Assembly: GCA_005790605.1 (NCBI GenBank)
Contig: SXUI01000055.1
Coordinates: 1-64,000 of the forward strand
Direction of reading: 5' to 3'
Source of the DNA: Planctomycetia bacterium
GTDB taxonomy: Bacteria > Planctomycetota > Phycisphaerae > Phycisphaerales > SM1A02
DNA length: 64,000 nucleotides
Part shown: in pieces, positions 5,637 through 61,666 of the stretch
Layout: each line of letters begins with the position of its first letter
How positions within the stretch are numbered: position 1 is the stretch's first letter
Notes under the pieces: generated by a model
Database searches by the model: none
What the model saw: the letters and a program-made list of their open reading frames with translations, nothing else
Told to the model about the DNA's origin: nothing
Translations under genes and position numbers: made by a program

Positions 5637-5689
5637 AGGGAGGGCACTTTAGCGGAGTGCGACCTGCTCCGAGAAACCTGCGCGAGCGC

Positions 5690-6940
5690 TCAAAGCACGC
5701 GCTCTGCTCGAGGGTAGCTTCCGAGCACTTCGAGCCGCGTGCAGTGCGTTCGAGCCTGCACGAGCGCCCGTTGCATCGCAGCGTCTTTCTCATGCGCAAG
5801 TGCGTCGATGAAGAACAGGTAGTCCCAGTGCGCGTCACCGCTTGGGCGCTTTTCGATGTGCGAGAGGTTGATCCCCTCTTGGCGAAAACTGTCAAGCACA
5901 TCGACGAGCGCACCGGCGCGATCAGCGAGGGTGAACCACAGCGTCGTCTTGTCATTGCCCGTCGGCGCCACACTCTCTCGACCGATCACCAAGAAGCGCG
6001 TCGTGTTGCCTGCCCGATCTTCGATGCCATCAAAGAGCACAGGGACACCGTGCAGTTCACCTGCGAAACTTGACGCGATCGCTGCAGAGCCTTCTTCTTC
6101 GTTCGCACGAACGACTGCGGCCGATGTGCTGGACTCAGGGACGAGCTCTGCGTTTGGAAGGACCCGAGCGCACCACTTCCGACATTGACCAAACGCCTGT
6201 GGCTTGGAATAGATCCGGCGAATCGCGTCAGGTGCCGCATTCGAAAGTAGTGCGAGTCGAACAGCGACGAGAGCCTCGGCGCGGATGGAAACCGGATGCG
6301 CGAGGAGCGCATCGAGTGTCTCAAGAATCGAACCCATGCTCGAGTTCTCGTACGGCACAAGACCGTGGTCGCATCGACCAGCGGCAACTTCAATGACCAC
6401 ATCAGGAATGGTCGGAACGCAGGCGATCTCGATGCTTGAGCCAAAGTGCCGCACAACTGCGAGGTGGCTGAAGGAACCAGTCGGGCCAAGGCAACCCACA
6501 CGCAACGGCCTTTCGAGCGCGAAGGACCCAGACATGATTTCGCGGAACACGGCTTCGATCGTGCGATCTGCGAGCGGGCTCGATGCAGCATGACTTCGAG
6601 AGACGGCGCGCTCGATGACTGCGCGTTCCCGACTCGGGACATAGATCGGCGCTACGCCACTCCGCTTGGCGACACCAACTTCCACCACGAGGTTCCCGCG
6701 CTTGGCGAGAAGGCCAACAAGCTCCGCATCGACGGCATCAATCTCGCCGCGAAGGGTTTCGAGGCTCTTTGGCGAACGCGAAGGATCGGGGGCAAGATCT
6801 GTCACGACGGAGTGCTCATGGAGGAAGTCGATTTGTTTTTCGGACCAGGCTCGAGGACGATTCGCGCGGGGTGGGAATCCGAAGTTGAAGCCGCGATTGA
6901 GCCGATGTTGACTCACTCGCGCGCCGACTTCTATCGGCAC
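5690..6940 (-). CDS. pheA: Bifunctional chorismate mutase / prephenate dehydratase (P-protein)
   Basis: The enzyme converts chorismate to prephenate and then phenylpyruvate in phenylalanine synthesis. Domains in order: an AroQ-type chorismate mutase beginning SLETLRGEIDAVDAELVGLL, a prephenate dehydratase domain beginning GCLGPTGSFSHLA and containing VPYENSSMGS and the NTTRFLVIG motif, and a C-terminal ACT domain (LVDVLDSFRQEGINLSHIEK and onward) for feedback inhibition by phenylalanine. The ESRP motif of the ACT domain reads EKRP. I chose GTG at 6940 because AGGAGG (6947-6952) sits 6 bases upstream; an ATG at 6946 directly abuts that sequence. About 58 residues precede the mutase domain, an extension over the usual P-protein. 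Confidence 0.92.
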   Translation of the reverse strand: MPIEVGARVSQHRLNRGFNFGFPPRANRPRAWSEKQIDFLHEHSVVTDLAPDPSRSPKSLETLRGEIDAVDAELVGLLAKRGNLVVEVGVAKRSGVAPIYVPSRERAVIERAVSRSHAASSPLADRTIEAVFREIMSGSFALERPLRVGCLGPTGSFSHLAVVRHFGSSIEIACVPTIPDVVIEVAAGRCDHGLVPYENSSMGSILETLDALLAHPVSIRAEALVAVRLALLSNAAPDAIRRIYSKPQAFGQCRKWCARVLPNAELVPESSTSAAVVRANEEEGSAAIASSFAGELHGVPVLFDGIEDRAGNTTRFLVIGRESVAPTGNDKTTLWFTLADRAGALVDVLDSFRQEGINLSHIEKRPSGDAHWDYLFFIDALAHEKDAAMQRALVQARTHCTRLEVLGSYPRAERVL

Positions 6941-6951
6941 ACTCATCCTCC

Positions 6952-9162: not shown

Positions 9163-9209
9163 TCCAAGCGATCGCGTGCGCCATCGGCGCAATGCGGAGG
9201 GTGTTCACC

Positions 9210-9677
9210 ATGGTTCGCCGTGAAACTGGAGGCGTGTGGGTCACGCTGAAGGAGACTATTGCAGCGTCGCCAGATGAAGTGCTCGAGTGCATCACAACGC
9301 CCGAGGGACTCACGCGATGGCTGAGCGTTGGCGCGAGCTTTGAGCCGCACGCCGGCGGACGACTCTCGCTTGCATGGGATCGTGAAGCGACACATGTCCT
9401 CGAGACCACGATTCAGGAGTACGACATCGCTCAGGGCCGCGTGAGTTGGGTCTGGTTTCCCACTCCGCTCGAAGATTGGACCGTCAAGCTCGAATTCCTC
9501 GTCGATCGCCAGGTCGAAGCGGGCGCCAGAGTGATCGTTCGCCTCGGTCCATTCTCAGAAGCGACGGACAGCCTGCTTGCTGCTGCGGATGCGGCGGAGA
9601 GCTGGCGCTGGTACCTGTGCAATCTTCGCTCAGTGCTTGAATCGAAACACGACATGCGAGCGATTCGGCCGCTCTAG
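9210..9677 (+). CDS. SRPBCC (START/Bet v1-like) domain protein
   Basis: The 155-residue protein has the pattern of the AHSA1-like SRPBCC fold: a strand VTLKETIAASPDEVLECITT, then PEGLTRWLS, G-rich strands ending in W, and a long C-terminal helix containing W(R)WYL. Such proteins bind hydrophobic ligands or act as chaperone co-factors; no ligand can be deduced. The ATG at 9210 has GGAGG nine bases upstream (9196-9200) and was chosen over TTG 9159 and ATG 9192. An interspersed structured repeat begins directly after its TAG stop. Confidence 0.72.
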   Translation: MVRRETGGVWVTLKETIAASPDEVLECITTPEGLTRWLSVGASFEPHAGGRLSLAWDREATHVLETTIQEYDIAQGRVSWVWFPTPLEDWTVKLEFLVDRQVEAGARVIVRLGPFSEATDSLLAAADAAESWRWYLCNLRSVLESKHDMRAIRPL

Positions 9678-9818
9678 TTGAGCGCTCGCGACTTGCGGCG
9701 CGATGCGTGCAGTTCGCCGGCATTGATGTAGCCGCCCCGCCTCGCTCGCTTTGGTGTGCGCCGGGGCGAGTGAATCGCCACTGGCGCAATTCCGCAGTTT
9801 TGCAGTTGAGCGCTCGCG
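9678..9818 (+). repeat. Structured interspersed repeat, copy A
   Basis: This is one copy of a non-coding repeat also present at 30599-30813 and 60124-60490. It begins one base after the stop codon of the SRPBCC gene with TTGAGCGCTCGCGACTTGCG and ends with another TTGAGCGCTCGCG (9806-9818), so a 13-base direct repeat brackets it. The core, 9740-9788, reads CTCGCTCGCTTTGGTGTGCG followed by a hairpin: GGCG and GGCGA pair with TCGCC and CGCC around a GTGAA loop. It is shorter than the B and C1 copies because the two distal hairpins are missing. ffh starts 27 bp downstream. Confidence 0.85.
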
Positions 9819-19145: not shown

Positions 19146-22100
19146 CTACTGGACCGGCCCCCATCGCACGAGCAATTGCGCAAGGTCTGCACCATCGACT
19201 TGATTGTCGCCCGTGAGATCGCCTAGCTCGGGATCCACCACTCCCCAGTTCACGAGGAGGATGGCGAGATCCGCGCCGCCAACAAGTCCGTCGAGGTCGA
19301 GATCGCCGTACTCATACTCACATGCATCAGGTTGTCCGTCCTCATCCGTATCCGCAAGACCCGTCGCGATGTCGCACGAATCAGGAATGCCGTTGATGTT
19401 GCAATCCGGCACGAGACCTTGCAGGAGTTCCCATGCATCGGGCAAACCGTTGGCGTTGCAATCTTCCTTGCACTCATCCGGCACGCCGTTGCTGTCCACA
19501 TCCGTGCTCGCGCCTGAATCAATGTCGCACGAATCCGGAATGCTATTGGCATTGCAATCCGGCACGAGACCTTGCAAGAGTTCCCACGCATCGGGCAGGT
19601 TGTTGGCGTTGCAATCCGCCTTGCACTCATCGGGCACGCCGTTGCTGTCCACATCGGTACTCGCGCCTGAAGCAATGTCGCACGAGTCTGGAACGCCATT
19701 CGTGTTGCAGTCGGCGAGAACTTCACACGCGTCGCCCACTCCGTCACTGTCGCAATCAGCCTGAGTGGTATTGATGACCCCTGGACAGTTGTCCTCGCAG
19801 TCCGCAACGCCGTCACTATCGCTGTCCGTGTCGGATACGCCACAACCACAGATGCCGGGAGCAATCTTGTTTGCGTCGTTTGGACAGCCGTCGTTGCAAT
19901 CGGCCGTGCCATCGCTGTCACTGTCTGTGTCAGCAACGCCGCAGCCGCACGCGCCGGGCGCGATCTTGTTCGAATCGTTGGGACAGAGGTCATTGCAATC
20001 CGCCGTGCCGTCACTGTCGCTGTCTGTGTCAGCGACGCCGCAACCACACGCGCCAGGCGCAGTCTTGTTCGAATCGTTGGGACAGAGGTCATTGCAATCC
20101 GCCGTGCCGTCACTGTCGCTGTCGGTGTCAGCGACGCCGCAACCACACGCACCAGGCGCAGTCTTGTTCGGGTCGTTCGCGCAGCCGTCGTTGCAATCCG
20201 CAGTGCCGTCGCTATCGCTGTCTGTGTCAGCAACGCCGCAGCCACATTGTCCAGGCGCGATCTTGTTCGGATCGTTCGCGCAGAGGTCGTTGCAATCCGC
20301 AGTGCCGTCGCTATCGCTGTCCGTGTCGGCGACGCCACAACCACAAACTCCAGGCGCGAACTTGTTCGGATCGTTCGGGCAGCCGTCGTTGCAATCGGCC
20401 GTGCCGTCACTATCGCTGTCCGTGTCGGCAACACCGCAACCACATGCGCCCGGTGAAGTCTTGTTCGGGTCGTTCGCGCAGAGGTCGTTGCAATCTGCAG
20501 TGCCGTCGCTGTCGGAGTCCGTATCGGCTACTCCGCAACCACATTGGCCGGGTGCGATCTTGTTCGCATCGTTTGGACATCCGTCATTGCAGTCCGCGAC
20601 GCCATCACTATCACTGTCGGAGTCGGCAACGCCGCAGCCGCAAATGCCGGGCGCGATCTTGTTGGCGTCGTTGGGGCAAAGGTCATTGCAGTTTGCAGTG
20701 CCGTCACTATCACTGTCGGTGTCGGCAACGCCGCAACCACACGCGCCAGGCGCAATCTTGCTGGAATCGTTCGGGCAGAGGTCATTGCAGTTTGCAGTGC
20801 CGTCACCGTCGGTGTCTGTGTCCGCGTTGCCGCAACCACACTGACCTGGGATTGACTTGTTTGAATCAAGCGGACATTCGTCTGATGCGTCCGCGACGCC
20901 GTCGTTGTCATCGTCTGGGTCGGCGTTGTTCCCGAGCCCATCGCCGTCGGTGTCGGTCCACTCACTCGCGTCGAGCGGGAAGGCATCAGAACCGTCAGCA
21001 ACGCCGTCATCGTCATCGTCGCTGTCGTTGCAATTCGCAGTGCCATCGCTATCGCTGTCGGTGTCGGCAGTTCCACATCCGCAGATTCCAGCCGCGATCT
21101 TGTCTGGATCACTCGGGCATCCATCGTTGCAATTCGCAGTACCGTCGCCGTCGCTGTCAGTGTCAGCTACACCGCATCCGCAGATTCCAGCCGCGATCTT
21201 GTTCGGATCATTCGGGCAACCGTCGTTACAGTCGGCACTGCCATCGCCGTCGGAATCAGTGTCTGCAACACCGCAACCACACTGGCCTGCCGAAGTCTTC
21301 GCGGCGTCGTTCGGGCAACCATCAATGCAATCGGCGGTGCCATCGCTGTCGGAATCAGTATCCGCAACGCCGCAGCCACATGCACCTGGTGCAGTCTTCG
21401 CAGCGTCGTTGGGGCAAAAGTCATTGCAATTCGCAGTGCCATCGCCGTCGCTGTCGGTGTCGGCGACGCCGCATCCACAGATTCCAGCGGCGATCTTGTT
21501 CGGATCGTTCGGGCAACCATCGTTGCAGTTCGCAGTGCCGTCGCCATCGTTGTCGGTGTCTGCGACACCACAACCACACTGGCCGGGCACGATCTTCGAT
21601 GAATCATTCGGGCATCCATCGCACGCGTTGATCGCGCCATCGCCGTCACTGTCCGCTTCGCATGCATCAGGGAGGCCGTTGGCGTTGCAATCCGCAGCGC
21701 CAGACGCGATTTCGCATGAGTTCAGCACGCCATCTGAATCGCAATCGTGCCCAGTGCTTTCGATTGAGTCATCAATGCCGTTGCCATTGCAATCCACCCG
21801 CTGAATGGCCAGCGAGTGGAATCCGCCCGCCGCGATGCGCGTGCATGCTCCAAGATCGGTTGGAATGCTCGTCTGGCCAGACCCGTTCCAACCCCACGCG
21901 CGCACAACACCCGCTTGCGTAAGCGCGATCGTGTGATCAAGTCCCGCCGCGATTTCTGTGCATACGCCGATGTCACTTGGAACTGTGGCCTGTCCGAAGG
22001 CGTTCCATCCCCATGCGCGCACCGCACCAGCTTGGGTGACGGCGACGGAGTGACGGCGACCCCCAGCAACTCGCGTGCACGCACCAAGGTCGCTCGGCAC

Positions 22101-25100
22101 GATGGTCTGGCCGTGCCCGTTGAGCCCCCATGCGCGCACAGTTCCTGCCTGCGTAATCACGATTGTGTGCGACATACCACCCGCAATCCGACTGCAAACA
22201 CCGAGGTCACTCGGCACCGTGCTCTGACCGTCGCTGTTCTGACCCCATGCGCGGACGAGCCCGCCTTGTGTCAGCGCGATGGCGTGATCGCTACCGCCTG
22301 CGATCTGTATGCACACGCCCAGATCAATTGGAATCGTGGTCTGACCGAATGAATTCGATCCCCATGCGCGCACCGTGCCAGCCTGCGTCAGCGCCATCGA
22401 GAAATTGCCGCACGCTGCAATCTGCGTGCACATCCCGAGGTTGCTTGGGACGGTAGCCTGCCCTTGGACGCCATACCCCCACGCGCGCACCGCACCACTG
22501 CGAGTGAGTGCCAAGGAGTGGTAGTTACCACCGGAAACCTGCGCGCACGCGCCGAGGTCGATCGGGGCCACGCGCTGCCCGTAATCATTGTGCCCCCACG
22601 CGCGGACAGCCCCGCCGATCACTTCGACGCAATCCGCAACGCCGTCACCGTCGGTGTCGGTGTCTGGGTTGCCGCAACCGCATTGGCCTGGATCGTTCTT
22701 TGCCGCATCAAGAGGGCAGCCGTCCGTCGCATCATTGACGCCGTCGTTGTCATCGTCTGCGTCAGCGTTGTTGCCAACCCCGTCACCATCCGAATCAACA
22801 GATTCACTCGCATCGAGCGGGAATGCATCAGCCAAATCAGAAACACCGTCGTTGTCATCATCGCTGTCGTTGCAATTCGCGGTGCCGTCGCTGTCGGTGT
22901 CGGTGTCGGCCACACCGCAGCCACACACTCCTGGCGCAGTCTTTGTCGGGTCATTCGGGCACCCATCGCATGCGTTGATCGTTCCGTCAGCGTCGCTGTC
23001 AACTTCGCACGAATCAGGCAGAGCATTCGCGTTGCAGTCAGCTGCGCCCGACGCGAGTTCGCATGAATTCAAAATGCCATCCGAATCACAATCATTGCCT
23101 GTGAGTTCGACGGCGTCGTTGATGCCATTTCCGTTGCAATCGAGTCGTTGAATGGCGATCGTGTGATCTCCACTCGTCGCAATCTGCGTGCAGGGACCGA
23201 GGTCGCTTGGGATTGTGGACTCGCCGAAGCCCGAGATTCCCCACGCTCTTACCACACCTTGTTGCGTGAGCGCGACTGAATGCGAATAGCCTGCTGCGAC
23301 TTGTGTGCACAAACCAAGGTCGCTTGGGATCGTGGTCTGGCCTAAGTTGTTCTTTCCCCACGCGCGCACGACGGCCGCGTTCGTGAGTGCGATCGTGTGA
23401 GATGCGCCACCCGCGACCTTCGAGCATGAACCGAGGTCTGTTGGGATCGAGGTCTGCCCATCGTCGTTCCTGCCCCACGCGCGCACGCCGCCGGATTGCG
23501 TGACTGCGATCGTGTGCTCGTCGCCCCCGGCGATGTTGGTGCAATCGCCGAGATCGCTTGGGACCGTGGTCTGACCGTAGTTGTTTCTTCCCCATGCGCG
23601 AACGCCGCCAGCTTGCGTGAGGGCGATCGTGTGATAGAACCCCGCGGCAATCTGCCTGCACGCACCGAGGTCTGCTGGGATCGCCGCCTGCCCGTAGCCA
23701 TCCCACCCCCATGTTCGCACAGCGCCCGTGAGCGTGAGTGCGATCCCGTGATAGCCACCGCCTGCGACTTGTGTGCACACGCCGAGGTCACTCGGGACTG
23801 CGCACTGACTGAAGTTGTTGGCTCCCCATGCGCGTACCGAACCGGCGCGCGTGAGTGCGATGGTATGAGTGCCACCGCCCGCGATGGCGGTGCATACGCC
23901 TAAGTCGCTTGGGATGTTGCACTGCCCCCAATCGTTCCTACCCCATGCTCGCACGAATCCACTGATCGGCGGTTCAACGCAGTCTGGCATGCCGTCGCCA
24001 TCCGTATCCGTGTCGGACACCCCGCAGCCACAACCTCCGGGCGAGATCTTGTTCGGATCGTTCGGACAGCCGTCTACGCAATTCGCAACGCCGTCACCGT
24101 CGGAATCGGTATCCGCGACGCCGCAGCCGCATACGCCCGGCGCAGTCTTCGCCGCGTCATTCGGACATGCGTCAACGCAGTCCGCTGTGCCGTCGCCATC
24201 GGAGTCCGTGTCGGTAACGCCGCAGCCGCATTGGCCTGGTGCGGACTTCGTCGGATCATTCGGGCAACCGTCGCACGGATCAATGGTGCCATCAGAATCC
24301 GTGTCGGTGTCGCACGCGTCTGGCCAACCATTGCCGTTACAGTCGGTTGACACACCTGAAGAGATATCGACGGGGTCGTAGATTCCGTTGCCGTTGCAAT
24401 CAAATCCTTGGAGTGCTGCGGTGTGCCGCCAACCCGCAGCAACCATAACACATGATCCGACGCTATCCGGAGCGCTGACTTGACCCTGCTCATTCGATCC
24501 CCAAGCGACCACGGCGCCGCTCTCCTGCACCGCCATCGTGCAGTCGGCACCCGCAGCGACGAACGAACACGCGCCAAGGCTGGTTGGAATCGTGCTTTGT
24601 CCGTGATTGTTCGCACCCCACGCAACGACGGTGCCATCGGCTTTGAGCGCCACGGTGTGATAGCCGCCTGCAGCAACTCGCACGCAAGCGCCGAGATCGG
24701 CGGGAACATTGCCTTGAGCGTACCCATTGAACCCCCACGCAACAACTGTGCCGTTCGTCTTGATAGCCACGGTGTGTCCCGAACCAGCCGCGATCTCAAT
24801 CGAGGTTCCGAGAGTCGTTGGCACGGTGCACTGCCCCGCCCAGTTCAATCCCCATGCGGCCACAACACCACTGGACTTGATCGCGACAGAGTGCGCTTCT
24901 CCAGCCGCGATTCGCGAGCACGAACCAAGAGTTGCGGGGATCGTGCACTGACCCTGCGGGTTACTTCCCCATGCGACCACCGTGCCATTCGCCTTGATTG
25001 CGAGGCTATGGAATCCGCCCGCTGCGACTTGTGAGCATGCACCGAGATTGGCGGGAACGGTGCATTGTCCGAAGTCATTCGCGCCCCACGCCGCGACAGA

Positions 25101-28100
25101 GCCACCAATCTTGAGCACGACATTGTGGTAGCCACCGACTGCGATTTGTGAACACTCGCCGAGATTTGTAGGCACATTACACTCGCCAGCGATGTTGCTC
25201 CCCCACGCGACGACCGTGCCGCGACCCACGAGGCAGTCGACGATGCCGTCACCGTTCGCATCCACATCCGGAGTCCCGCAGCCGCACGCGCCTGGCGCGG
25301 ACTTGTTCGGATCGGTTCGACACCCGTCGGAGAGATCAAGCACTCCATCGTTGTCGTCGTCGGTATCGGCATTGTCGCCGACTCCGTCGCCGTCGCTATC
25401 CGCTGACTCGCTTGGATTCAGTGGGAATGCATCGCCCAAATCCGCAACGCCATCGTTGTCATCATCACTGTCAACACAATCGGGTGCCCAGTCACCATCA
25501 GTATCCGTCTCAGGGATGAAGCAACCACAAACCCCAGCGCCGACCTTGTTGGGATCACTTGGGCAACCGTCGTTGCAATTCGCCGCGCCATCGCCGTCGC
25601 TGTCGGTGTCGGCTACGCCGCAGCCACATTGTCCCGGCGCGGTCTTGTTTGGGTCTTCCACGCATCCATCAATGCAATTTGCCGTGCCATCGCCATCGGC
25701 ATCGTAGTCAGGCACCCCACAACCACATTGTCCTGGCGCGATCTTGTTCGGGTCGTTCGGGCAGCCATCCTGACAATTCTTCGTGCCGTCGCCATCCGAG
25801 TCCGTGTCTGGCGTTCCACAACCGCAAACGCCGGGCGCGATCTTGCTTGGGTCATTCGGACAGCCGTCGTTGCAGTTTGCTGTGCCGTCGCCGTCGCTGT
25901 CGGTATCCGCGACGCCGCAGCCACACTGTCCCGGCGCAACTTTGCTCGGGTCATTCGGGCAGCTATCAACGCAGTTTGCTGTGCCGTCGCCATCCGCGTC
26001 GATGTCGGGATTGCCGCAACCGCATTGTCCTGGAGCAATCTTGGACGGATCGTTGGGACACGCATCATTGCAGTTCGCTGTGCCGTCTCCGTCGCTGTCC
26101 GTGTCCGCGCCTCCACAACCACATTGCCCAGGAGCAACTTTGTTCGGATCATTCGGACATCCATCGCAATCATTGATCACGCCATCCGCATCAGCATCTG
26201 ACTCGCAGGAATCCGGGACTCCATCCCCATCGCAATCCGGTGCTCCCGCGACAATCTCGCACTGGTTAGGAATGCCATCGGCATCACAGTCAGATGCACC
26301 TAGCGCGATCTCGCATGAATCGAGGATGCCGTCGTAATCACAGTCGTGACCCACGATTTCAAGAAAATCGTCGATCCCGTTCCCATCGCAATCGAGGCGT
26401 TGGATCGCGAGACTGTGATAGTCCCCCCCGGAGACCCGCGTGCATGCGCCTAGATCGGCTGGCACGCCGAGTGCGGGATTTCCGCTCCCTCCCCACACGC
26501 GGACCAGCCCAGACTGAGTGAGCGCTATCCCGTGAGAGCTCCCAGAACTGAGCCCGACGCATGGACCGAGGTCACTCGGAATATTGAGTTGCTGTGCGCC
26601 ATTGAAGCCCCAACCGCGAACCGCTCCAGTAGCCGTCAGTGCAAAAGTGTGGTTCTCTCCGGCGGCAACCTGGGTGCACGCCCCGAGATCGCTAGGAACA
26701 TCGCATTGTCCTATCCAGCTCCTGCCCCACGCTCGAACCACGCCAAATCGGGATAGAGCTATCGTGTGGAATCCACCTCCGGCAATCTCCGTGCAGATAT
26801 CAAGGTCCGTCGGTACTTGAGTTTGACCTTCTGAGTTGTAACCCCACGCCTTCACGCCGCCCGCAGTTGTCAGTGCGATCGAGTGCCTTACACCCGCGCC
26901 GATTCTTGAGCACGCACCTAAGGTAGGCGGAACATTGAGCTGGCCGTACTCGTTAGCCCCCCCCCACGCTCGAACCGTTCCCGCGGCGGTCAACGCGAGA
27001 GCATGAGCAGCCCCCGCGGCGATGTCGATACAGGGTCCAAGGTTACCAGGAGGGTCCTCGAATGCGCCAAACACACGCACGGTTCGCATCCGAGTCAGCA
27101 CCACGGAAAACGGCGAGCCGCCGGCGATTCGCACACACAAGCCGAGGTCCGCAGGAGTTGCGCACTGACCAAAGGAACTCGCACCCCACGCGCGCACAAA
27201 GCCCCCCTCGAGCTGCGCACAGTCCAAGTTCCCATCGCCATCGATGTCCACATCTGGGACCCCGCAACCACAGGAACCGACGGCGACTTTGTTCGCATCG
27301 AGCGGGCAACCATCCTGCGCATCACCGACGCCGTCATTGTCATCGTCCCCATCATTGCAGTTCACGGTTCCGTCGCCGTCTGTGTCGGTGTCCGGGATAC
27401 CGCATCCACACTGACCGACAGCTGCCTTCGCAGGATCGTTCGGGCAACCATCACACGCGTTGATCACACCATCCAAATCAGTGTCGGTTTGACATGCATC
27501 GGGCACCCCGTTCGCGTCGCAATCTGGTGCTCCCGATGCAATCTCACACGAGTTCAAGAGGCCGTCCGAATCGCAATCGTTTCCCGCAATCTCGAGGTAG
27601 TCATCCACTCCGTTGCCATTGCAGTCATAGCGCTCGATCGCAAGCGCGTGAATCGGGCCCGCCGCAATATCATTGCATGGCCCTAAGTTTGAAGGGATGT
27701 AGGTTGGAAACCCCTTCCACCACCCGCGCACCACGCCGAGTTGAGTAAGCGCAAGGGAGGCTGATCCCCCAGCTGCGACGCGGGTGCATGCTCCCAGATC
27801 GGTAGGGACGAAGAGTTGCCCATCTTCATTCCAACCCCACGCGCGCACCACTCCCGCTTGAGTGAGGGCTAGGGTGTGATACTGCCCTGCAGCGATCTGC
27901 ACGCAAGGTCCAAGGAAGGGCGGGGTCTCCGACTGATAGAATTCATTCGAGCCCCAAACAAGCACGTCCCCGCTTTGTCGGAGCACGACCGTGTGCGCGA
28001 GCCCGCCGGCAATCTTGGTGCAGGCTCCAAGCCACTCCGGTACGGAGCATTGATACTCGCTGTTATCTCCCCACGCCCGAACGCTGCCAGCGGTAGTGAT

Positions 28101-28655
28101 GGCGAGTGAATGGAACTCCCCTGCAGCGACACTCGCGCATATGCCCAAGTTGGATGGCACCGCGCGCTGTCCATGTGAATTCGAACCCCAACCGACCACA
28201 CCGCCGGACACTGTGACAACGAGCGTGTGGTCCCGTCCCGCGGCAATTTTTTTGCACAGACCGAGCCCGTTCGGAATCGTCGTCTGCTGCTGATCATTCA
28301 GTCCCCAGGCGCGAACAATTCCATTGGCAGTAAGCGCCACGGAATGATGTTCACCAACAGCTATCTCCTTGCAAAGCCCTAGGTCTGGAGGAACCGATGT
28401 CGACCCGCCGACATCGAGACCCCAAGCCCGAACCATCCCCAGCCCGTCTGCTTTCGCGTTGGAGGTGAACGCAAGCAGCAGCAAGCTAAGGCACCAGAGC
28501 ACTTCTAGCGAACGACAAAACCCCAGGCCCTTTGTCAGTACCCTCCCCAGAATCGGGGAATCTGCGCGCGTCTGGCTCGTCGAACCGCAAGCGCATGATC
28601 GGGATTCAACTGCAATCAAACTCAGTTGAATCATGGATCGAAGCCATTCAAACAT
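19146..28655 (-). CDS. Giant exported protein: five RCC1-like propellers, thrombospondin-3 repeats, dockerin-like tail
   Basis: This 3169-codon gene encodes a probable cell-surface or secreted protein. The N terminus has a long basic region and a hydrophobic stretch (CLSLLLLAFTSNAKADG) that looks like a signal peptide cut after AKA, about residue 68. GAGAGG lies 6 bases before the ATG at 28655. Blocks of seven RCC1-like blades (39 residues each, VRAWG...GQ...VP.DLG.C..IA.G..H..ALT..G) lie at about residues 73-340, 484-754, 1146-1416, 1566-1836 and 2016-2287. Asp-rich thrombospondin-3/EF-like linkers (DCNGNG, CPNDP, CGCG, DTDSDGDG) separate them. About 17 further calcium repeats fill residues 2290-2960. 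The last 57 residues form two dockerin-like halves (DLDLDGLVGGADLAILL and DLTGDNQVDGADLAQLL). No catalytic domain is visible. A role in adhesion or a calcium-stabilised surface structure is inference. Confidence 0.9.
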   Translation of the reverse strand: MFEWLRSMIQLSLIAVESRSCACGSTSQTRADSPILGRVLTKGLGFCRSLEVLWCLSLLLLAFTSNAKADGLGMVRAWGLDVGGSTSVPPDLGLCKEIAVGEHHSVALTANGIVRAWGLNDQQQTTIPNGLGLCKKIAAGRDHTLVVTVSGGVVGWGSNSHGQRAVPSNLGICASVAAGEFHSLAITTAGSVRAWGDNSEYQCSVPEWLGACTKIAGGLAHTVVLRQSGDVLVWGSNEFYQSETPPFLGPCVQIAAGQYHTLALTQAGVVRAWGWNEDGQLFVPTDLGACTRVAAGGSASLALTQLGVVRGWWKGFPTYIPSNLGPCNDIAAGPIHALAIERYDCNGNGVDDYLEIAGNDCDSDGLLNSCEIASGAPDCDANGVPDACQTDTDLDGVINACDGCPNDPAKAAVGQCGCGIPDTDTDGDGTVNCNDGDDDNDGVGDAQDGCPLDANKVAVGSCGCGVPDVDIDGDGNLDCAQLEGGFVRAWGASSFGQCATPADLGLCVRIAGGSPFSVVLTRMRTVRVFGAFEDPPGNLGPCIDIAAGAAHALALTAAGTVRAWGGANEYGQLNVPPTLGACSRIGAGVRHSIALTTAGGVKAWGYNSEGQTQVPTDLDICTEIAGGGFHTIALSRFGVVRAWGRSWIGQCDVPSDLGACTQVAAGENHTFALTATGAVRGWGFNGAQQLNIPSDLGPCVGLSSGSSHGIALTQSGLVRVWGGSGNPALGVPADLGACTRVSGGDYHSLAIQRLDCDGNGIDDFLEIVGHDCDYDGILDSCEIALGASDCDADGIPNQCEIVAGAPDCDGDGVPDSCESDADADGVINDCDGCPNDPNKVAPGQCGCGGADTDSDGDGTANCNDACPNDPSKIAPGQCGCGNPDIDADGDGTANCVDSCPNDPSKVAPGQCGCGVADTDSDGDGTANCNDGCPNDPSKIAPGVCGCGTPDTDSDGDGTKNCQDGCPNDPNKIAPGQCGCGVPDYDADGDGTANCIDGCVEDPNKTAPGQCGCGVADTDSDGDGAANCNDGCPSDPNKVGAGVCGCFIPETDTDGDWAPDCVDSDDDNDGVADLGDAFPLNPSESADSDGDGVGDNADTDDDNDGVLDLSDGCRTDPNKSAPGACGCGTPDVDANGDGIVDCLVGRGTVVAWGSNIAGECNVPTNLGECSQIAVGGYHNVVLKIGGSVAAWGANDFGQCTVPANLGACSQVAAGGFHSLAIKANGTVVAWGSNPQGQCTIPATLGSCSRIAAGEAHSVAIKSSGVVAAWGLNWAGQCTVPTTLGTSIEIAAGSGHTVAIKTNGTVVAWGFNGYAQGNVPADLGACVRVAAGGYHTVALKADGTVVAWGANNHGQSTIPTSLGACSFVAAGADCTMAVQESGAVVAWGSNEQGQVSAPDSVGSCVMVAAGWRHTAALQGFDCNGNGIYDPVDISSGVSTDCNGNGWPDACDTDTDSDGTIDPCDGCPNDPTKSAPGQCGCGVTDTDSDGDGTADCVDACPNDAAKTAPGVCGCGVADTDSDGDGVANCVDGCPNDPNKISPGGCGCGVSDTDTDGDGMPDCVEPPISGFVRAWGRNDWGQCNIPSDLGVCTAIAGGGTHTIALTRAGSVRAWGANNFSQCAVPSDLGVCTQVAGGGYHGIALTLTGAVRTWGWDGYGQAAIPADLGACRQIAAGFYHTIALTQAGGVRAWGRNNYGQTTVPSDLGDCTNIAGGDEHTIAVTQSGGVRAWGRNDDGQTSIPTDLGSCSKVAGGASHTIALTNAAVVRAWGKNNLGQTTIPSDLGLCTQVAAGYSHSVALTQQGVVRAWGISGFGESTIPSDLGPCTQIATSGDHTIAIQRLDCNGNGINDAVELTGNDCDSDGILNSCELASGAADCNANALPDSCEVDSDADGTINACDGCPNDPTKTAPGVCGCGVADTDTDSDGTANCNDSDDDNDGVSDLADAFPLDASESVDSDGDGVGNNADADDDNDGVNDATDGCPLDAAKNDPGQCGCGNPDTDTDGDGVADCVEVIGGAVRAWGHNDYGQRVAPIDLGACAQVSGGNYHSLALTRSGAVRAWGYGVQGQATVPSNLGMCTQIAACGNFSMALTQAGTVRAWGSNSFGQTTIPIDLGVCIQIAGGSDHAIALTQGGLVRAWGQNSDGQSTVPSDLGVCSRIAGGMSHTIVITQAGTVRAWGLNGHGQTIVPSDLGACTRVAGGRRHSVAVTQAGAVRAWGWNAFGQATVPSDIGVCTEIAAGLDHTIALTQAGVVRAWGWNGSGQTSIPTDLGACTRIAAGGFHSLAIQRVDCNGNGIDDSIESTGHDCDSDGVLNSCEIASGAADCNANGLPDACEADSDGDGAINACDGCPNDSSKIVPGQCGCGVADTDNDGDGTANCNDGCPNDPNKIAAGICGCGVADTDSDGDGTANCNDFCPNDAAKTAPGACGCGVADTDSDSDGTADCIDGCPNDAAKTSAGQCGCGVADTDSDGDGSADCNDGCPNDPNKIAAGICGCGVADTDSDGDGTANCNDGCPSDPDKIAAGICGCGTADTDSDSDGTANCNDSDDDDDGVADGSDAFPLDASEWTDTDGDGLGNNADPDDDNDGVADASDECPLDSNKSIPGQCGCGNADTDTDGDGTANCNDLCPNDSSKIAPGACGCGVADTDSDSDGTANCNDLCPNDANKIAPGICGCGVADSDSDSDGVADCNDGCPNDANKIAPGQCGCGVADTDSDSDGTADCNDLCANDPNKTSPGACGCGVADTDSDSDGTADCNDGCPNDPNKFAPGVCGCGVADTDSDSDGTADCNDLCANDPNKIAPGQCGCGVADTDSDSDGTADCNDGCANDPNKTAPGACGCGVADTDSDSDGTADCNDLCPNDSNKTAPGACGCGVADTDSDSDGTADCNDLCPNDSNKIAPGACGCGVADTDSDSDGTADCNDGCPNDANKIAPGICGCGVSDTDSDSDGVADCEDNCPGVINTTQADCDSDGVGDACEVLADCNTNGVPDSCDIASGASTDVDSNGVPDECKADCNANNLPDAWELLQGLVPDCNANSIPDSCDIDSGASTDVDSNGVPDECKEDCNANGLPDAWELLQGLVPDCNINGIPDSCDIATGLADTDEDGQPDACEYEYGDLDLDGLVGGADLAILLVNWGVVDPELGDLTGDNQVDGADLAQLLVRWGPVQ
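19780..21650 (-). repeat. 99-bp tandem repeat array encoding thrombospondin-3-like calcium repeats
   Basis: About 17 units of 99 bp (33 codons) lie in the 3' third of the giant gene. Each encodes a version of CPNDPNKIAPGQCGCGVADT then DSDSDGTADCND. One interruption at about 20870-21040 encodes a different Asp-rich segment (DAFPLDASEWTDTDGDG). Neighbouring units are very similar at DNA level, especially at 19860-20760, as expected for an array that expands and contracts by slippage or unequal recombination. Each unit has four Cys and five or more Asp positions in DxDxDG-like spacing. Confidence 0.92.
21796..28440 (-). repeat. Five blocks of seven 117-bp RCC1-blade repeats
   Basis: Blade-coding units of 117 bp (39 codons) occur in blocks at about 21796-22608, 23140-23960, 24400-25225, 26385-27205 and 27630-28440. 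Each block contains exactly seven blades, the number that closes an RCC1 propeller, and each ends with the same DCNGNG hand-over into an Asp-rich linker. Nearly every blade has a single Cys at blade position 21 (LGxC). The middle block (24400-25225) uses VVAWG and AIKxNGT and not VRAWG and ALTQAG, so it forms a separate subfamily. Confidence 0.9.
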
Positions 28656-29297: not shown

Positions 29298-30602
29298 ATG
29301 ATCGACGAGCATCACAACGAAGGACATTCGCGACAGAGCACTGAACTACTCCAGAGGTTCTCGACGCTGCGCATGGAGGTGCGCTCCGTTTTGGATTCAG
29401 CGGGGCTCACCAACTGCACAGCGTCCGAGCTCGGGCGGATCCTAAAGATCGACAAGACGCTCGCGTGGAGGGTTCATCGCGTTGCCTTCGCGATCGACGG
29501 CGATCTTTCGCGCGCACTTTCCGCAGTGCCAGGGCTGCGAGGCTGGGATCTCGTGCGCGTGGGGCTGTTTGAACACGGTGCGAACCGCAAATCTGTCGGC
29601 CAGCTGGTAACGGCGGTGGTTGCGTTCCACTCTCATCTCGATGTGCACCCACTCTCGCGACGCGTACTCGCCGCTGACGTGAGTGCTGCGACACGGCAGC
29701 TCTCAAGTGTGCATGGTGCGCCCGAAGTTCTCGCGCTTCGTCGCGCTGGTACAGAGGCACGCATGACTGCGCTTGGGATTTCGGAGGCTGTGGGTATCAG
29801 TTCGTTCTTGATCGCGCCGTCACCACAGCCCGGGATGGTTGGAGTCGCCGCGCTCCGCGTGCGTGACCGTCTCACGCAACTTCGTCCGCGCCCACCCGCG
29901 AATATCTACATCTCGATGATCACCTGGAAAGATGGTCAATTGGTTGACGGCGGATACCGCCCGCTCGATCCGAGCACCAGTTCAACCGCCCTGATTCAGG
30001 ACCTGAGCACGGAGCGCGTTCTGGGAAATGAAATCAAGATTGCGGACAAGCCCCGCCGAGTAGGAGAGGACTTCGAATTCGTCGGTCATGTCGGTGGAAA
30101 CAACCGCTCAATCCGCGCGTGCTTTGGTGAAGTCGCGCCTGTGCTTGCATCTGCCTATGCGACCACTGATGGTGAACGAGCGGAACTAGGATTCCCGCTC
30201 GAACTTCCCCGCCATCTCGCCCTGTTCGACATCTTTTTGCACCGCGATGTCCCCATGGTCGGCGAGATCGCTCTGCGCATGCACAGTACGGAGAACGCGC
30301 TTTATGGGCATCGGTACTTTCGAGCGCAAACAGAGTTACCTCCCGAGACGACACTCAGAAAACTGTCCCAGAGCGATGAAGACATCGACCTCACGACGCA
30401 ACTCACCGAGCACCTCCGCGATTCCACTGAAACCGCCGAATCGTTGTGTGGCGTGTACAGAGAGCTGCGCCAGCGTGCCGCGGTCGCCCTTCAATTCTCA
30501 CTCAACGACTTCTCGCTCTACCGAGCAGTGATCGCATACCCGACGACGCCTTCGACATTGATCGCATCCTGGCCGCTCCCCGCGCGAGATTGCAAATCTT
30601 GA
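29298..30602 (+). CDS. Unknown protein with N-terminal helix-turn-helix-like segment
   Basis: I do not recognise this 434-residue family. An HTH-like stretch lies at about residues 36-60 (NCTASELGRILKIDKTLAWR), suggesting DNA binding. The remaining 370 residues are a mixed alpha/beta soluble region with no metal or nucleotide motif I can name. No signal peptide or membrane segment is present. It could be a transcriptional regulator with a large effector domain. The nearest upstream gene is the divergent giant surface protein, which is a possible target but only by position. Its TGA stop lies inside the TTGAGCGC end of repeat copy B. Confidence 0.65.
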   Translation: MIDEHHNEGHSRQSTELLQRFSTLRMEVRSVLDSAGLTNCTASELGRILKIDKTLAWRVHRVAFAIDGDLSRALSAVPGLRGWDLVRVGLFEHGANRKSVGQLVTAVVAFHSHLDVHPLSRRVLAADVSAATRQLSSVHGAPEVLALRRAGTEARMTALGISEAVGISSFLIAPSPQPGMVGVAALRVRDRLTQLRPRPPANIYISMITWKDGQLVDGGYRPLDPSTSSTALIQDLSTERVLGNEIKIADKPRRVGEDFEFVGHVGGNNRSIRACFGEVAPVLASAYATTDGERAELGFPLELPRHLALFDIFLHRDVPMVGEIALRMHSTENALYGHRYFRAQTELPPETTLRKLSQSDEDIDLTTQLTEHLRDSTETAESLCGVYRELRQRAAVALQFSLNDFSLYRAVIAYPTTPSTLIASWPLPARDCKS

Positions 30603-30813
30603 GCGCGCGCGGCTTGCGATGCGTTGGGACCGAACCGCGGTCGATTCTGTAGTCGCGCCGCGGCGAGTGAATCGCCAAGGGCGCAACTCCAGCGTCTTCG
30701 GACGCACTGAGCCCGCCCTCCGACGGTGCCGATTCAATCGGCCCGTCGGAGTAGAAAGCGAGTGCAACGATTTTGCCGCGTTTCGCGGCAAGAATCTTGC
30801 ACGAGCGCTCAAA
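30599..30813 (+). repeat. Structured interspersed repeat, copy B (fills a convergent intergenic gap)
   Basis: The element exactly fills the space between two convergent genes. Its left end TTGAGCGCGCGCGGCTTGCG contains the TGA of the HTH gene, and its right end, read on the minus strand, is TTTGAGCGCTCGTGCAAG directly after the TAG of the phosphomannomutase gene. Five hairpins follow one another: 30628-30642 (GACCG/CGGTC); 30655-30684 (GCGCC and GGCGA with TCGCC and GGCGC); 30692-30705 (GCGTC-TTCG-GACGC, a UUCG-type tetraloop); 30718-30751 (9 bp plus 6 bp with one bulged base); and 30773-30791 (TTGCCGCG-TTT-CGCGGCAA). Confidence 0.88.
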
Positions 30814-32214
30814 CTAATGCGCCACGCGATGACCAAGGATCGGCTCAAGCTTCGCGACCATGCGATCCACCGTTGCCTTGTCACGCGCCTCAAGGTTGAG
30901 ACGAAGCAACGGCTCGGTGTTCGACATACGAATGTTGGCCCACCACTCGCCCGCGTCAATCGAAAGCCCATCAAGTTCGTGCGTCTTCGCGTTTGGATAC
31001 GAGGACTTCAACTTCGCGAGCGCGCCGAGTTTGTCTTCGTTTTCAAAGTTGATCTCGCCCGACTGGATGTATCGCACGCACGGCGCGAGCAATTGCGAGA
31101 GTGGTTTCGTCGCGTGCGTGAGCGCTGTGATCACCGCTGCAAACGCGCGCGCTCCACTGTCGGCACCAAACATGTCTTCGAAGTAGAAGTGACCCGATAG
31201 TTCGCCTCCAATGACGGAGCGACTTTCCGCGAGTTTCGCTTTCATGAACACATGGCCAACACGGCTCTCGACTGGCGTTCCGCCACATTCACGAATGATC
31301 TCCGGCACGCTGCGCGAACTTCGAAGGTCATACACCACGCTCGCGCCCTTCTTTGTGCGTAGGAGAACTTGCACCATCCACGCGAGCAGAATGTCGCATC
31401 CGACCGTCAGGCCGCGCTCATCCACCGCTGCGCAACGATCCGCATCTCCATCAAAGCAGAAGCCAGCTGCGGCTCCACTTGCAGGTACCGCGTCCTGAAG
31501 TTGCTTGAGATTCGCTTCCACAAGCGGGTTCGGTTCATGCAGAAACTCTCCTGTCGAGTTATCGAAGTTGAGTTGCTCGATCTCCAATCCGCGCACTTGA
31601 GCGAAGACCTTCGGCAGCATGGTTCCTGCCATACCGTTGGATGCATCAACCACGATTTTCATCCGCTTCTCACCGCGAACAAGCGCGGGATCGACGAACT
31701 GCATCAGGTGCGCGCTGTACGCCTCCCACAGATCCATCACGCGCACACTTCCGCCGTGCTTCTTCGCGGTCGTTGGATCAAGTGTCTCGGTAACAACTTT
31801 GATCGCGCCAAGCCCCGTGTCTTGTCCGACCGGCTTCGCGTGGTGCTTCGAAACTTTGAAGCCGTTGTACTGCGCTGGATTGTGCGAGGCCGTGACCATG
31901 ATCGCACCAGCGCACGCAAGGTGATTCACGGCGAAATAAGTGAACGGAGTATCGACTTTTCCGACATGGACGACATCGGCGCCAGCATCGCAAAGGCCGC
32001 GGACCAGCGCGTTAGACAGCGATGGGGAGCTCTTCCGCATGTCGTGCCCGACGACAATCGTGCGCGCAGAAGCCCCGGTAATCCCGCCTTGCGCTGCCTC
32101 ACCGAGGAGGTAGCCGGCACTCGCATAACCAACCTTCCACGCCCCTGCCTCATTCAATGGCTCTGGATACACCGCCCGAACGTCATACGCCTTGAAACAC
32201 TTCGAAAGACTCAT
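30814..32214 (-). CDS. Phosphomannomutase/phosphoglucomutase
   Basis: The 466-residue alpha-D-phosphohexomutase interconverts hexose 1- and 6-phosphates (Man or Glc) for sugar-nucleotide synthesis. Four expected signatures are seen: the N-terminal substrate strand KCFKAYDVRAVYP, the phosphoserine loop TASHNPAQYNGFKVS, the metal loop CFDGDADRCAAVDE and the sugar-ring loop GGELSGHFYF. The phosphate-binding segment near the C terminus (RMSNTEPLLRLNLEA) is intact. I chose ATG 32214 because the family begins at this point; an earlier in-frame ATG at 32292 adds 26 residues without family resemblance. The specificity (ManB or Pgm) cannot be settled by eye. Confidence 0.93.
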   Translation of the reverse strand: MSLSKCFKAYDVRAVYPEPLNEAGAWKVGYASAGYLLGEAAQGGITGASARTIVVGHDMRKSSPSLSNALVRGLCDAGADVVHVGKVDTPFTYFAVNHLACAGAIMVTASHNPAQYNGFKVSKHHAKPVGQDTGLGAIKVVTETLDPTTAKKHGGSVRVMDLWEAYSAHLMQFVDPALVRGEKRMKIVVDASNGMAGTMLPKVFAQVRGLEIEQLNFDNSTGEFLHEPNPLVEANLKQLQDAVPASGAAAGFCFDGDADRCAAVDERGLTVGCDILLAWMVQVLLRTKKGASVVYDLRSSRSVPEIIRECGGTPVESRVGHVFMKAKLAESRSVIGGELSGHFYFEDMFGADSGARAFAAVITALTHATKPLSQLLAPCVRYIQSGEINFENEDKLGALAKLKSSYPNAKTHELDGLSIDAGEWWANIRMSNTEPLLRLNLEARDKATVDRMVAKLEPILGHRVAH

Positions 32215-59844: not shown

Positions 59845-60123
59845 ATGGAACTAGAGCTGGACAAGCGACCGAGCGTTGTTCTCGTCCCTGCTCACACAGA
59901 CCGGCTTAGTTTCTGCACGGTCTTTTCGAAAACGATCAAGACCGATGAACTTTCAATGGCATTCATCGGATAAGAGAGGTGCGTGCAGCGCAGCGGAACC
60001 GTCCGCTTCCACGATGCGCGCGTTGGGGAACGGCCACGCCGTTTTCCTCCCACATTCCATCTGGCCATCCACCCGCCGCCGCTTCAGATGAAAGTCTGAA
60101 CGGCGGTTTTGGTCGCATCCTTC
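59845..60123 (+). other. Non-coding segment with several hairpins and a terminator, possible small RNA
   Basis: No gene is supported here. Hairpins visible on the plus strand are CCGATGAA...TTCATCGG (59941-59968), AACGGC-CAC-GCCGTT followed by TTCC (about 60036-60053), and a strong terminator: CCGCCG plus TTCAGA (60076-60088) pairing with TCTGAA plus CGGCGG (60095-60106), one bulged C, then TTTT. Because the lipoprotein transcript already ends at 59832, a second terminator suggests another short transcript starting in this interval. Confidence 0.4.
60076..60110 (+). terminator. Second plus-strand terminator
   Basis: The stem has two arms, CCGCCG/CGGCGG and TTCAGA/TCTGAA, separated by one bulged C, with a TGAAAG loop and a TTTT tail. 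No coding gene lies between it and the lipoprotein terminator at 59796-59832. Confidence 0.8.
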
Positions 60124-60336
60124 GAGCGCTCGCGCAAGATTCTCGCCCGCAGCGGGCGAAATCATTGCACTCGCTTTGGACTCCGACCGCGCGAATGAAT
60201 CGCGACGGTCGGAGAGCGGGCTCATTCCGTCCGAGGACATCTGATATGCGCCGCTCGCGATTCACTCGCGGCGGCGCACACCAAAGCGAGCGAGGAATCT
60301 GCTGCTTGGAGCAGATTCCAAGTCGCGAGCGCTCAA
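60124..60336 (-). repeat. Structured interspersed repeat, copy C1 (full length)
   Basis: Read on the minus strand it begins TTGAGCGCTCGCGACTTGG (at 60336) and ends GCGCGAGCGCTC (60124). Hairpins, on plus coordinates, are 60294-60319 (10-bp GGAATCTGCT/AGCAGATTCC), 60248-60277 (GCGCCGC and CGCGA with TCGCG and GCGGCGC around TTCAC), 60181-60214 (CTCCGACCG and CGCGA with TCGCG and CGGTCGGAG), and 60144-60158 (CGCCC/GGGCG). It aligns along its length with the reverse complement of copy B, with compensatory changes in stems. Confidence 0.88.
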
Positions 60337-60490
60337 GATACGCGCTCCGTGCGGCGGAAGACATCGGAATTGCGCCGCTCGCGATTCACTCGCGGCGGCG
60401 CACACCAAAGCGAGCGAGGCGGCGCGGCTACCTTGAGATTGGCGGGTCCGATTCAACGCGCCGCAAGTCGCGAGCGCTCAAACTTCGCGC
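60337..60490 (-). repeat. Structured interspersed repeat, copy C2 (short form)
   Basis: This unit lies directly after the stop of the aminotransferase gene. On the minus strand it reads TTGAGCGCGAAG then TTTGAGCGCTCGCGACTTGC, followed by a GCGCG...CGCGC arm and the conserved TCGCTCGCTTTGGTGTGCGC core and hairpin (about 60374-60403 on plus coordinates). It matches copy A in length and in lacking the two distal hairpins. C2 and C1 are head-to-tail in tandem. Confidence 0.85.
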
Positions 60491-61666
60491 TCAAGCTTGC
60501 ATCAGCTTGCGCAAGATCCCAAGACCTTCGGCGAGCACTTCTTCCTTCTGCGCGAAGGAAAGTCGGAAATGCGTATCCCGGTGGCTGAACACTTTCCCCG
60601 GAATAATGAGGACATTGTTCGCGATGGCCTTCTCGACAAACTGCGTAGCAGTCAGATTGAGTCGCTTGGGGACTTCGACGAATCCGTAGAACGCGCCTCC
60701 CGGCCGAGTGACTTGCGCGACACCTTCAAACGCCTCAAGCATCATCGCGCGACGCTTCTCGAATCGATCAACCCACGGTTGCATATCCACATCAAACGCC
60801 TTCGCCACACCGTGCTGCGCCATACTTGGCGCGCAGACATAACTGTACTGCTGCAACCTCGCCATCGCTTGCACAAGATCATGTGGACCCGCCACATATC
60901 CGAGTCGCCAGCCAGTGCATCCGTAGGTCTTTCCAAATCCACGGACCAGCAGACAATCTCTTGTGTACGACGCGGGTGAAGGGAATCGACCGTCCTCGCG
61001 CGACTCAGAGAAGGTGAACTCGTCGTAGATCTCATCCGAAATGATGAGAAGATTCTTCGCGCGGCAAAGATCGACGATGTCGCGGATCTCTTGCTGGTTC
61101 AGCACAACACCCGTCGGATTGCCCGGGCTGTTGAGCAGCACACACTTCGTGCGTGGCGTGATCGCGCGCTCGATGCGCTCCGCGGTCAGCCGGAAATCAG
61201 GGTAGGTGTCGACTGCCACCATCTTTCCCGTAGTGAGCGGTCCCATCGCTGGGTACATCACGAAGTACGGGTCGGGAATGATCGCCTCATCGCCTTCATC
61301 GAGGAGACACAGCAGCGCCAAAAACAGCCCGCCGCTTGTTCCACTCGTGGCGATTGCGCTCAGTCCATGCTCCGCACCGCGCGGCCACTGGAACTCATAT
61401 TCAAGTCGCTTCCAGATTGCTTCAATGAGCTCGTGGCAACCTTGCGTAGGTGTGTAGCCATTCTTGTCGCCTGCGATCGCTGCGATGGCAGCGTCCTTAA
61501 TCGCCTGGGGCACCGGAAAGTCCGGCTGACCAATGGAGAGATTGATCGGATTCTTCAGGTGCGCGGCGAGGTCAAAGACCTTGCGAATTCCACTCGCATC
61601 AATGGCATGCGCGCGCTTGGAGAGGAGTGCGGAGATATCAAGTGAATGAGAAGCGGTGACTGTCAT
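60491..61666 (-). CDS. Class I/II pyridoxal-phosphate aminotransferase
   Basis: The 391-residue fold-type I aminotransferase has the usual order: LSIGQPDFPVPQAIKDA, GYTPTQGCHELIEAI, ATSGTSGGLFLALL, LLNSPGNPTGVVL (Asn-Pro motif), IISDEIYDEF (Asp of the PLP pyridine), the PLP lysine in GFGKTYGCTGWRLGY and the substrate Arg in THFRLSFA. It resembles the aspartate/aromatic aminotransferase 1-gamma group; substrate not determinable. Its TGA stop lies at the edge of the repeat cluster 60124-60490. Confidence 0.93.
   Translation of the reverse strand: MTVTASHSLDISALLSKRAHAIDASGIRKVFDLAAHLKNPINLSIGQPDFPVPQAIKDAAIAAIAGDKNGYTPTQGCHELIEAIWKRLEYEFQWPRGAEHGLSAIATSGTSGGLFLALLCLLDEGDEAIIPDPYFVMYPAMGPLTTGKMVAVDTYPDFRLTAERIERAITPRTKCVLLNSPGNPTGVVLNQQEIRDIVDLCRAKNLLIISDEIYDEFTFSESREDGRFPSPASYTRDCLLVRGFGKTYGCTGWRLGYVAGPHDLVQAMARLQQYSYVCAPSMAQHGVAKAFDVDMQPWVDRFEKRRAMMLEAFEGVAQVTRPGGAFYGFVEVPKRLNLTATQFVEKAIANNVLIIPGKVFSHRDTHFRLSFAQKEEVLAEGLGILRKLMQA

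Follow-up and report, generated by a model that had tools for sequence, protein, structure and literature searches.

In convergent gene pairs, GTAG and CGTC REPs are found <20 bp from each of the two 3' ends, and in codirectional pairs they sit near the stop codon of the upstream gene (Di Nocera et al. 2013, PMC3733652). The termini of GTAG REPs often supply the stop codon, TAG. Both types have been reported from Planctomycetes, and CGTC families have no dedicated transposase (PMC3733652). TnpAREP/REP proteins recognize the GTAG guide, the loop, and the bulge (PMC8266576). A class of Y1 proteins is found mainly in Planctomycetes and is flanked by atypical structures (PMC6006769). In E. coli, REPs located 15 nt or less from a stop codon downregulate translation (PMC12306157). 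The bacterial MITEs RUP, NEMIS, and ERIC have also been listed (PMC3733652).

A hairpin-forming interspersed repeat occupies ~60 loci in a 3.03 Mb, 80-contig planctomycete assembly (G000). The window, the whole 64,000-nucleotide stretch analyzed here, is C42:1-64000 of this assembly. The initial annotation described three copies in the window, each at the 3' end of a gene. All three are present, but a degenerate fourth copy had been missed. The features are the following:

~5651-5693, minus strand: degenerate fourth copy, TTGAGCGCTCGCGCAGG, consisting only of the head and the start of hairpin A
9675-9677, plus strand: TAG stop codon of the SRPBCC-like gene (9201-9677), directly adjoining the head of copy A
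9678-9818, plus strand: copy A, a single half-unit plus a second head in direct orientation, TTGAGCGCTCGCG (9806-9818)
9678-9688, plus strand: head of copy A, followed by hairpin A, CTCGCTTTGG, and hairpin B
9754-9790, plus strand: hairpin B of copy A, with loop AGTGAAT, a bulged base, and a stem of ~12 bp (covariance model E 3.6e-11)
30599-30814, plus strand: copy B, two inverted half-units between convergent genes
60120-60482, minus strand: copy C, three half-units with heads at 60481 (minus), 60336 (minus), and 60122 (plus)
60482-60494, minus strand: extra 13-nt unit resembling a head, TTGAGCGCGAAGT; its TGA ends the aminotransferase gene

In copy A, TTGAGCGCTCG starts at 9678 and the TAG of the SRPBCC-like gene ends at 9677, leaving zero bases between them. 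In copy B, the TGA of gene 29373-30602 lies inside TTGAGCGC of the left head, as had been stated. This plus-strand gene, previously named HTH, has no Pfam match. The right, inverted head of copy B, at 30812, is separated by 1 nt from the stop codon, TAG, of the PMM gene (30814-32214, minus strand). Copy C is downstream of the aminotransferase gene (60491-61666, minus strand). Its head had been placed after the aminotransferase TGA, and the 3'-end position is correct, but that TGA belongs to a preceding, incomplete TTGAGCGCG, and the head proper begins 9 nt further on, at 60481 on the minus strand. In the fourth copy, gene 5690-6946 (minus strand) takes its stop codon from the TGA of TTGAGCG, and the orthologous site in the relative L098 holds a longer copy that has an additional 13-nt unit. 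The window also contains an ORF of ~3,100 aa made of 99-nt and 117-nt repeats (19146-28502, minus strand). The segment 19030-30747, including gene 29373-30602, is missing in the close relative L097, where a repeat copy is found at the junction.

All copies read are composed of half-units of ~100 nt, in which the head TTGAGCGC is followed by hairpin A, CGCTTTGGA, and hairpin B. The head can be written as TTGAGCGC(TCG), hairpin A is variable with several unrelated stem types, and the linker between the two hairpins is CTCGCTTTGGA or CTCGCTTTCGA. Convergent loci usually hold two inverted half-units, ~235 nt in total and often with one half-unit per gene end, and thus both outer ends of the element read TTGAGCGC inwards. 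Single half-units and direct tandem half-units are both frequent. The inverted end is only 11 nt and is itself nearly palindromic. Several elements carry extra 13-nt units, such as TTGAGCGCGTCCC, on the gene-facing edge. Tandem units of this length, TTGAGCGC(A/G)TCCC, occur at the gene-side edge in contigs C58, C60, and C17 of G000 and in L097 near 9645-9680. These units are possible footprints of repeated insertion or slippage.

In hairpin B, 32-34 nt long, the loop, AGTGAAT or AATGAAT, and a bulged A (92/112 copies) are constant while the stems vary. In the stretches of its own genome around the copies, 112 copies of hairpin B were found, 7 of them inside called genes, compared to 1-16 matches for shuffled loops. 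Among 55 distinct sequences, 94.2% of cells pair, and two-sided changes are seen in 10 of the 12 stem pairs, the signature of covariation; none of 500 shuffles reached any of the five measures. The RNA of copies B and C folds far more stably than shuffled controls (z -6.9 and z -9.7, respectively), and whole-unit folding of copy A alone is not significant (z -1.4). In the related genome G001, the stems are quite different (TCAACCG, TCAGGCG), but the loop is unchanged.

The repeat family occurs in a single genus of uncultured Planctomycetota. With a covariance model of hairpin B, 67, 50, 28, and 5 places were matched in the four members of the genus, and just three marginal single matches were obtained in 97 other genomes of the taxonomic family. 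By Ffh protein, the closest named records are MAGs of uncultured Planctomycetota (97% and 86% identity), and Phycisphaerales are more distant. In its own genome, exact TTGAGCGCTCG ends number 109 versus 20 for the reversed control, and the repeat at 9678-9818 used as a BLAST query has 71 matches, with 65 and 80 places matched by copies B and C. In G000 and G003, many copies are located at the ends of contigs (e.g., G000 C5:4, C11:48322, and C80:54367). The repeat has thus broken the assembly, and the copy number is probably too low. An Rfam search of the window returned 0 matches above threshold; the sub-threshold matches, MH_s15 and sodF_sRNA, look like chance hits to GC-rich hairpins. A literature search found no description of this repeat family.

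Placement was analyzed on ~560 kb of the genome, mainly stretches around elements and including 100 kb of contig C42, with genes called by a hexamer model. Gaps with hairpin B comprise 28 convergent, 18 codirectional, and 1 divergent gap, compared to 50, 240, and 76 without the element, and the excess in convergent gaps is strong (Fisher p=2e-11). The placement at gene 3' ends first seen in the window therefore holds genome-wide. One could suppose that the repeat merely fills short intergenic gaps with no 3'-end preference, since element-free convergent gaps are short (median 17.5 bp) and proximity to a stop is then expected. However, convergent gaps make up 6.8% of the element-free noncoding bases and 28 of the 47 element gaps, whereas divergent gaps make up 41% of those bases and 1 of 47. 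These figures exclude random insertion into noncoding DNA and leave chance placement refuted, with next to no probability.

The tabulation of copies against stop codons and strand, which the initial annotation had proposed, also gave a non-random result. Within -10 to +30 of a stop, TTGAGCG occurs 73 times on the strand of the gene and 5 times on the opposite strand. It lies exactly at -4 in 26 cases, where it supplies the stop codon with its TGA; 25 of these genes are 120 aa or longer. The six stops at distance 0 are all TAG, which yields (G/C)TAG-TTGAGCG. Some exact-motif matches flagged inside genes are chance occurrences and others are copies whose TGA ends the gene. The claim that the repeat always starts at a stop codon is well borne out by these counts but has an exception, the sole copy in a clearly divergent gap (C14:23613-24197, L044; ~23.7 kb). 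This copy appears real, and G003 (L191) also has an element between the orthologues of the divergent genes. At least one of the apparent divergent copies in G003 (L073) is an artefact of the gene caller. The claim of a single polarity largely holds for TTGAGCG (73:5) but not for whole half-units, as hairpin B copies in codirectional gaps lie 20 in the same and 13 in the opposite orientation, and the inverted-repeat ends by themselves account in part for the shared polarity at each gene end. Copy B does fill its convergent gap, up to 1 nt from the PMM stop, but given the median of 17.5 bp for element-free convergent gaps, this exact fit is largely expected. Strict polarity and exact gap filling are thus less informative than had been assumed.

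Strong hairpins right behind stop codons, with two inverted copies between convergent genes, are what a family of bidirectional intrinsic transcription terminators would look like. This explanation is very unlikely, because a T-tract follows the hairpin at 3 of 53 element-bearing 3' ends, no more than at the 32 of 341 ends with no element, and canonical terminators occur separately in this genome. At C38:76096, the element is situated past such a terminator. The termination component of the 3'-UTR role suggested in the initial annotation is not supported, but the 3'-end placement, the covarying hairpins, and the position kept in relatives agree with the rest of that role. Judging from these sequence features, the element may have a role in processing or stability at 3' ends.

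Comparison with sister species separates what is conserved in the element (location, loop, and bulge) from what is free (stem sequence). Of the 15 element loci of G003 that could be assessed, 13 are matched by an element at the flank of the orthologous gene in G000. The hairpins at shared sites are nevertheless not the same; L097, for instance, carries different ones at both the PMM gene (window 30814) and the SRPBCC gene (window 9677). Sister species that have different stems but an identical loop and bulge at corresponding gene ends provide a natural experiment. Other sites are occupied in one species and empty in another. The site at C74:2053 is occupied in G000, where the element head encodes a new C-terminus, LSARD*, and consists of overlapping stops, TGATCA, in G003. 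Conversely, a site on C15 of G002 is occupied and corresponds to a 10-bp gap in G000. In G001, near-identical tandem copies with their own stems are found at many places, indicating recent lineage-specific amplification. Shared sites with differing hairpins, together with the occupied and empty pairs, support insertion followed by stem turnover at kept sites. From the sequences compared, this turnover could have occurred by either gene conversion or re-insertion. The other suggestion of the initial annotation, a mobile element that inserts at gene ends, is partly supported, in that occupied and empty sites and lineage amplification suggest that the inverted pair may be mobile.

A selected, non-mobile 3'-UTR RNA element, such as an mRNA stabilizer or a ribosome-pausing hairpin that changes via compensatory drift and gene conversion, would also keep its position between species, as at the 13 of 15 assessable loci. 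Stems that covary beneath a constant loop and bulge, the frequent presence of one half-unit per gene end at convergent loci, and the effect of stop-proximal E. coli REPs on translation (PMC12306157) are in line with it. The occupied and empty differences and the lineage-specific tandem amplification argue against it, as do the divergent copy common to a related species and the C38:76096 copy beyond a canonical terminator. Moreover, only ~60 loci exist in a 3 Mb genome, so the repeat is not a general gene-end signal. We regard this alternative as possible but rather doubtful.

The family also resembles bacterial MITEs such as RUP, NEMIS, and ERIC, which are 70-300 bp, have inverted ends, lie close to genes, and fold as RNA. 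The common size of ~235 nt and the inverted ends would suit a MITE with TTGAGCGCTCG terminal inverted repeats moved by a DDE transposase, in which the hairpins are passengers. This is improbable for an element that is modular, with frequent single and direct tandem half-units, and whose inverted end is a short (11 nt), nearly palindromic sequence. What is conserved is instead the loop and bulge in its interior. The occupied and empty pairs read showed no obvious target-site duplication, and no parent transposase was seen in a scan for Y1.

Attachment sites of integrons, attC, follow the stop codon in gene orientation and act as a folded single strand in which extrahelical bases are conserved and stems vary. 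The repeat shares the post-stop position in gene orientation, the conserved extrahelical bases, and the variable stems. Unlike attC, it is spread beside ordinary chromosomal genes rather than in cassette arrays and has no attC core-site ends. Anatomy was the sole ground for rejecting an integron attC site or a DNA-uptake sequence.

The closest likeness is to the GTAG/CGTC REPs and BIMEs, which are palindromic and extragenic, form inverted pairs, and share the 3'-end placement and stop-codon supply. Here too, many extragenic palindromes are present, with inverted pairs at most convergent loci, and the location is at 3' ends (28/18/1 versus 50/240/76). REPINs with a RAYT (Bertels and Rainey 2011, PMC3116915) are likewise inverted hairpin pairs, present in many copies and genus-restricted, and they have the hairpin with a conserved single-stranded loop and bulge that TnpAREP proteins recognize (PMC8266576). 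The differences are several. The half-unit of ~100 nt has two hairpins, whereas REPs are 20-40 (65) nt with one hairpin; hairpin B alone would fit a REP unit and the half-unit does not. The terminus supplies TGA (from TTGAGCGC) more often than TAG, and stems are replaced at fixed sites between species. A profile search for the Y1 transposase (PF01797, RAYT) in four genomes of the genus found none in G000, G001, and G003 and only partial matches in G002, the genome with the fewest elements; no element-flanked transposase was found. In REPs, the tetranucleotide GTAG (or GTGG or CGTC) stands 0-2 nt 5' of the hairpin foot. Here, the guide GTAG precedes 23 of 61 heads in G001, 2 nt (TT) from the stem, but only 3 of 150 in G000, where TCCC and TCCT are commonest, and it is not among the common tetranucleotides before heads in G003. 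With GTAG this unevenly distributed and Y1 absent from three of four genomes, membership in the GTAG-RAYT group is not established.

Taken together, the repeat is probably a genus-specific, REP/BIME-like (REPIN-like) family of small palindromic mobile DNA that is tolerated or used at transcript 3' ends. The absence of Y1 in G000, G001, and G003, the rarity of GTAG in G000, and the length of the half-units were counted against it. By analogy, the repeat appears to work like a REP/BIME. Copies would spread as folded single strands, with an enzyme recognizing the loop and bulge. Insertions would persist mostly behind genes, at positions that disrupt no promoter and no coding sequence, and the TGA (or TAG) at the element terminus would then become the stop codon. 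Stems would be swapped among copies through conversion or re-insertion. Once transcribed, stop-proximal hairpins would probably shield the 3' ends of mRNAs or delay ribosomes at termination, as reported for E. coli REPs. A more specific version, which we consider unlikely, is that an enzyme other than the Y1 transposase moves the family, recognizing the AGTGAAT loop and bulged A, joining copies at or next to TGA stops, and swapping stems. Each gene end would then be a permanent docking site with hairpins that outpace the flanking genes in turnover.

GTAG/CGTC REPs are already known from the literature to have this arrangement, supply of the stop codon included; the longer, genus-specific family is new. 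With it, REP-like biology now includes an uncultured planctomycete genus, in which a large, structurally conserved family exists with no recognizable RAYT in most carriers. What moves transposase-less REPs and whether such REPs act on mRNA become directly testable. In G001 (e.g., L213, L217, and L224), a third short hairpin, CACCGACTCCGTCGGTAG, lies behind hairpin B with GTAG at its end, and these three-hairpin elements are arranged as direct tandem arrays.
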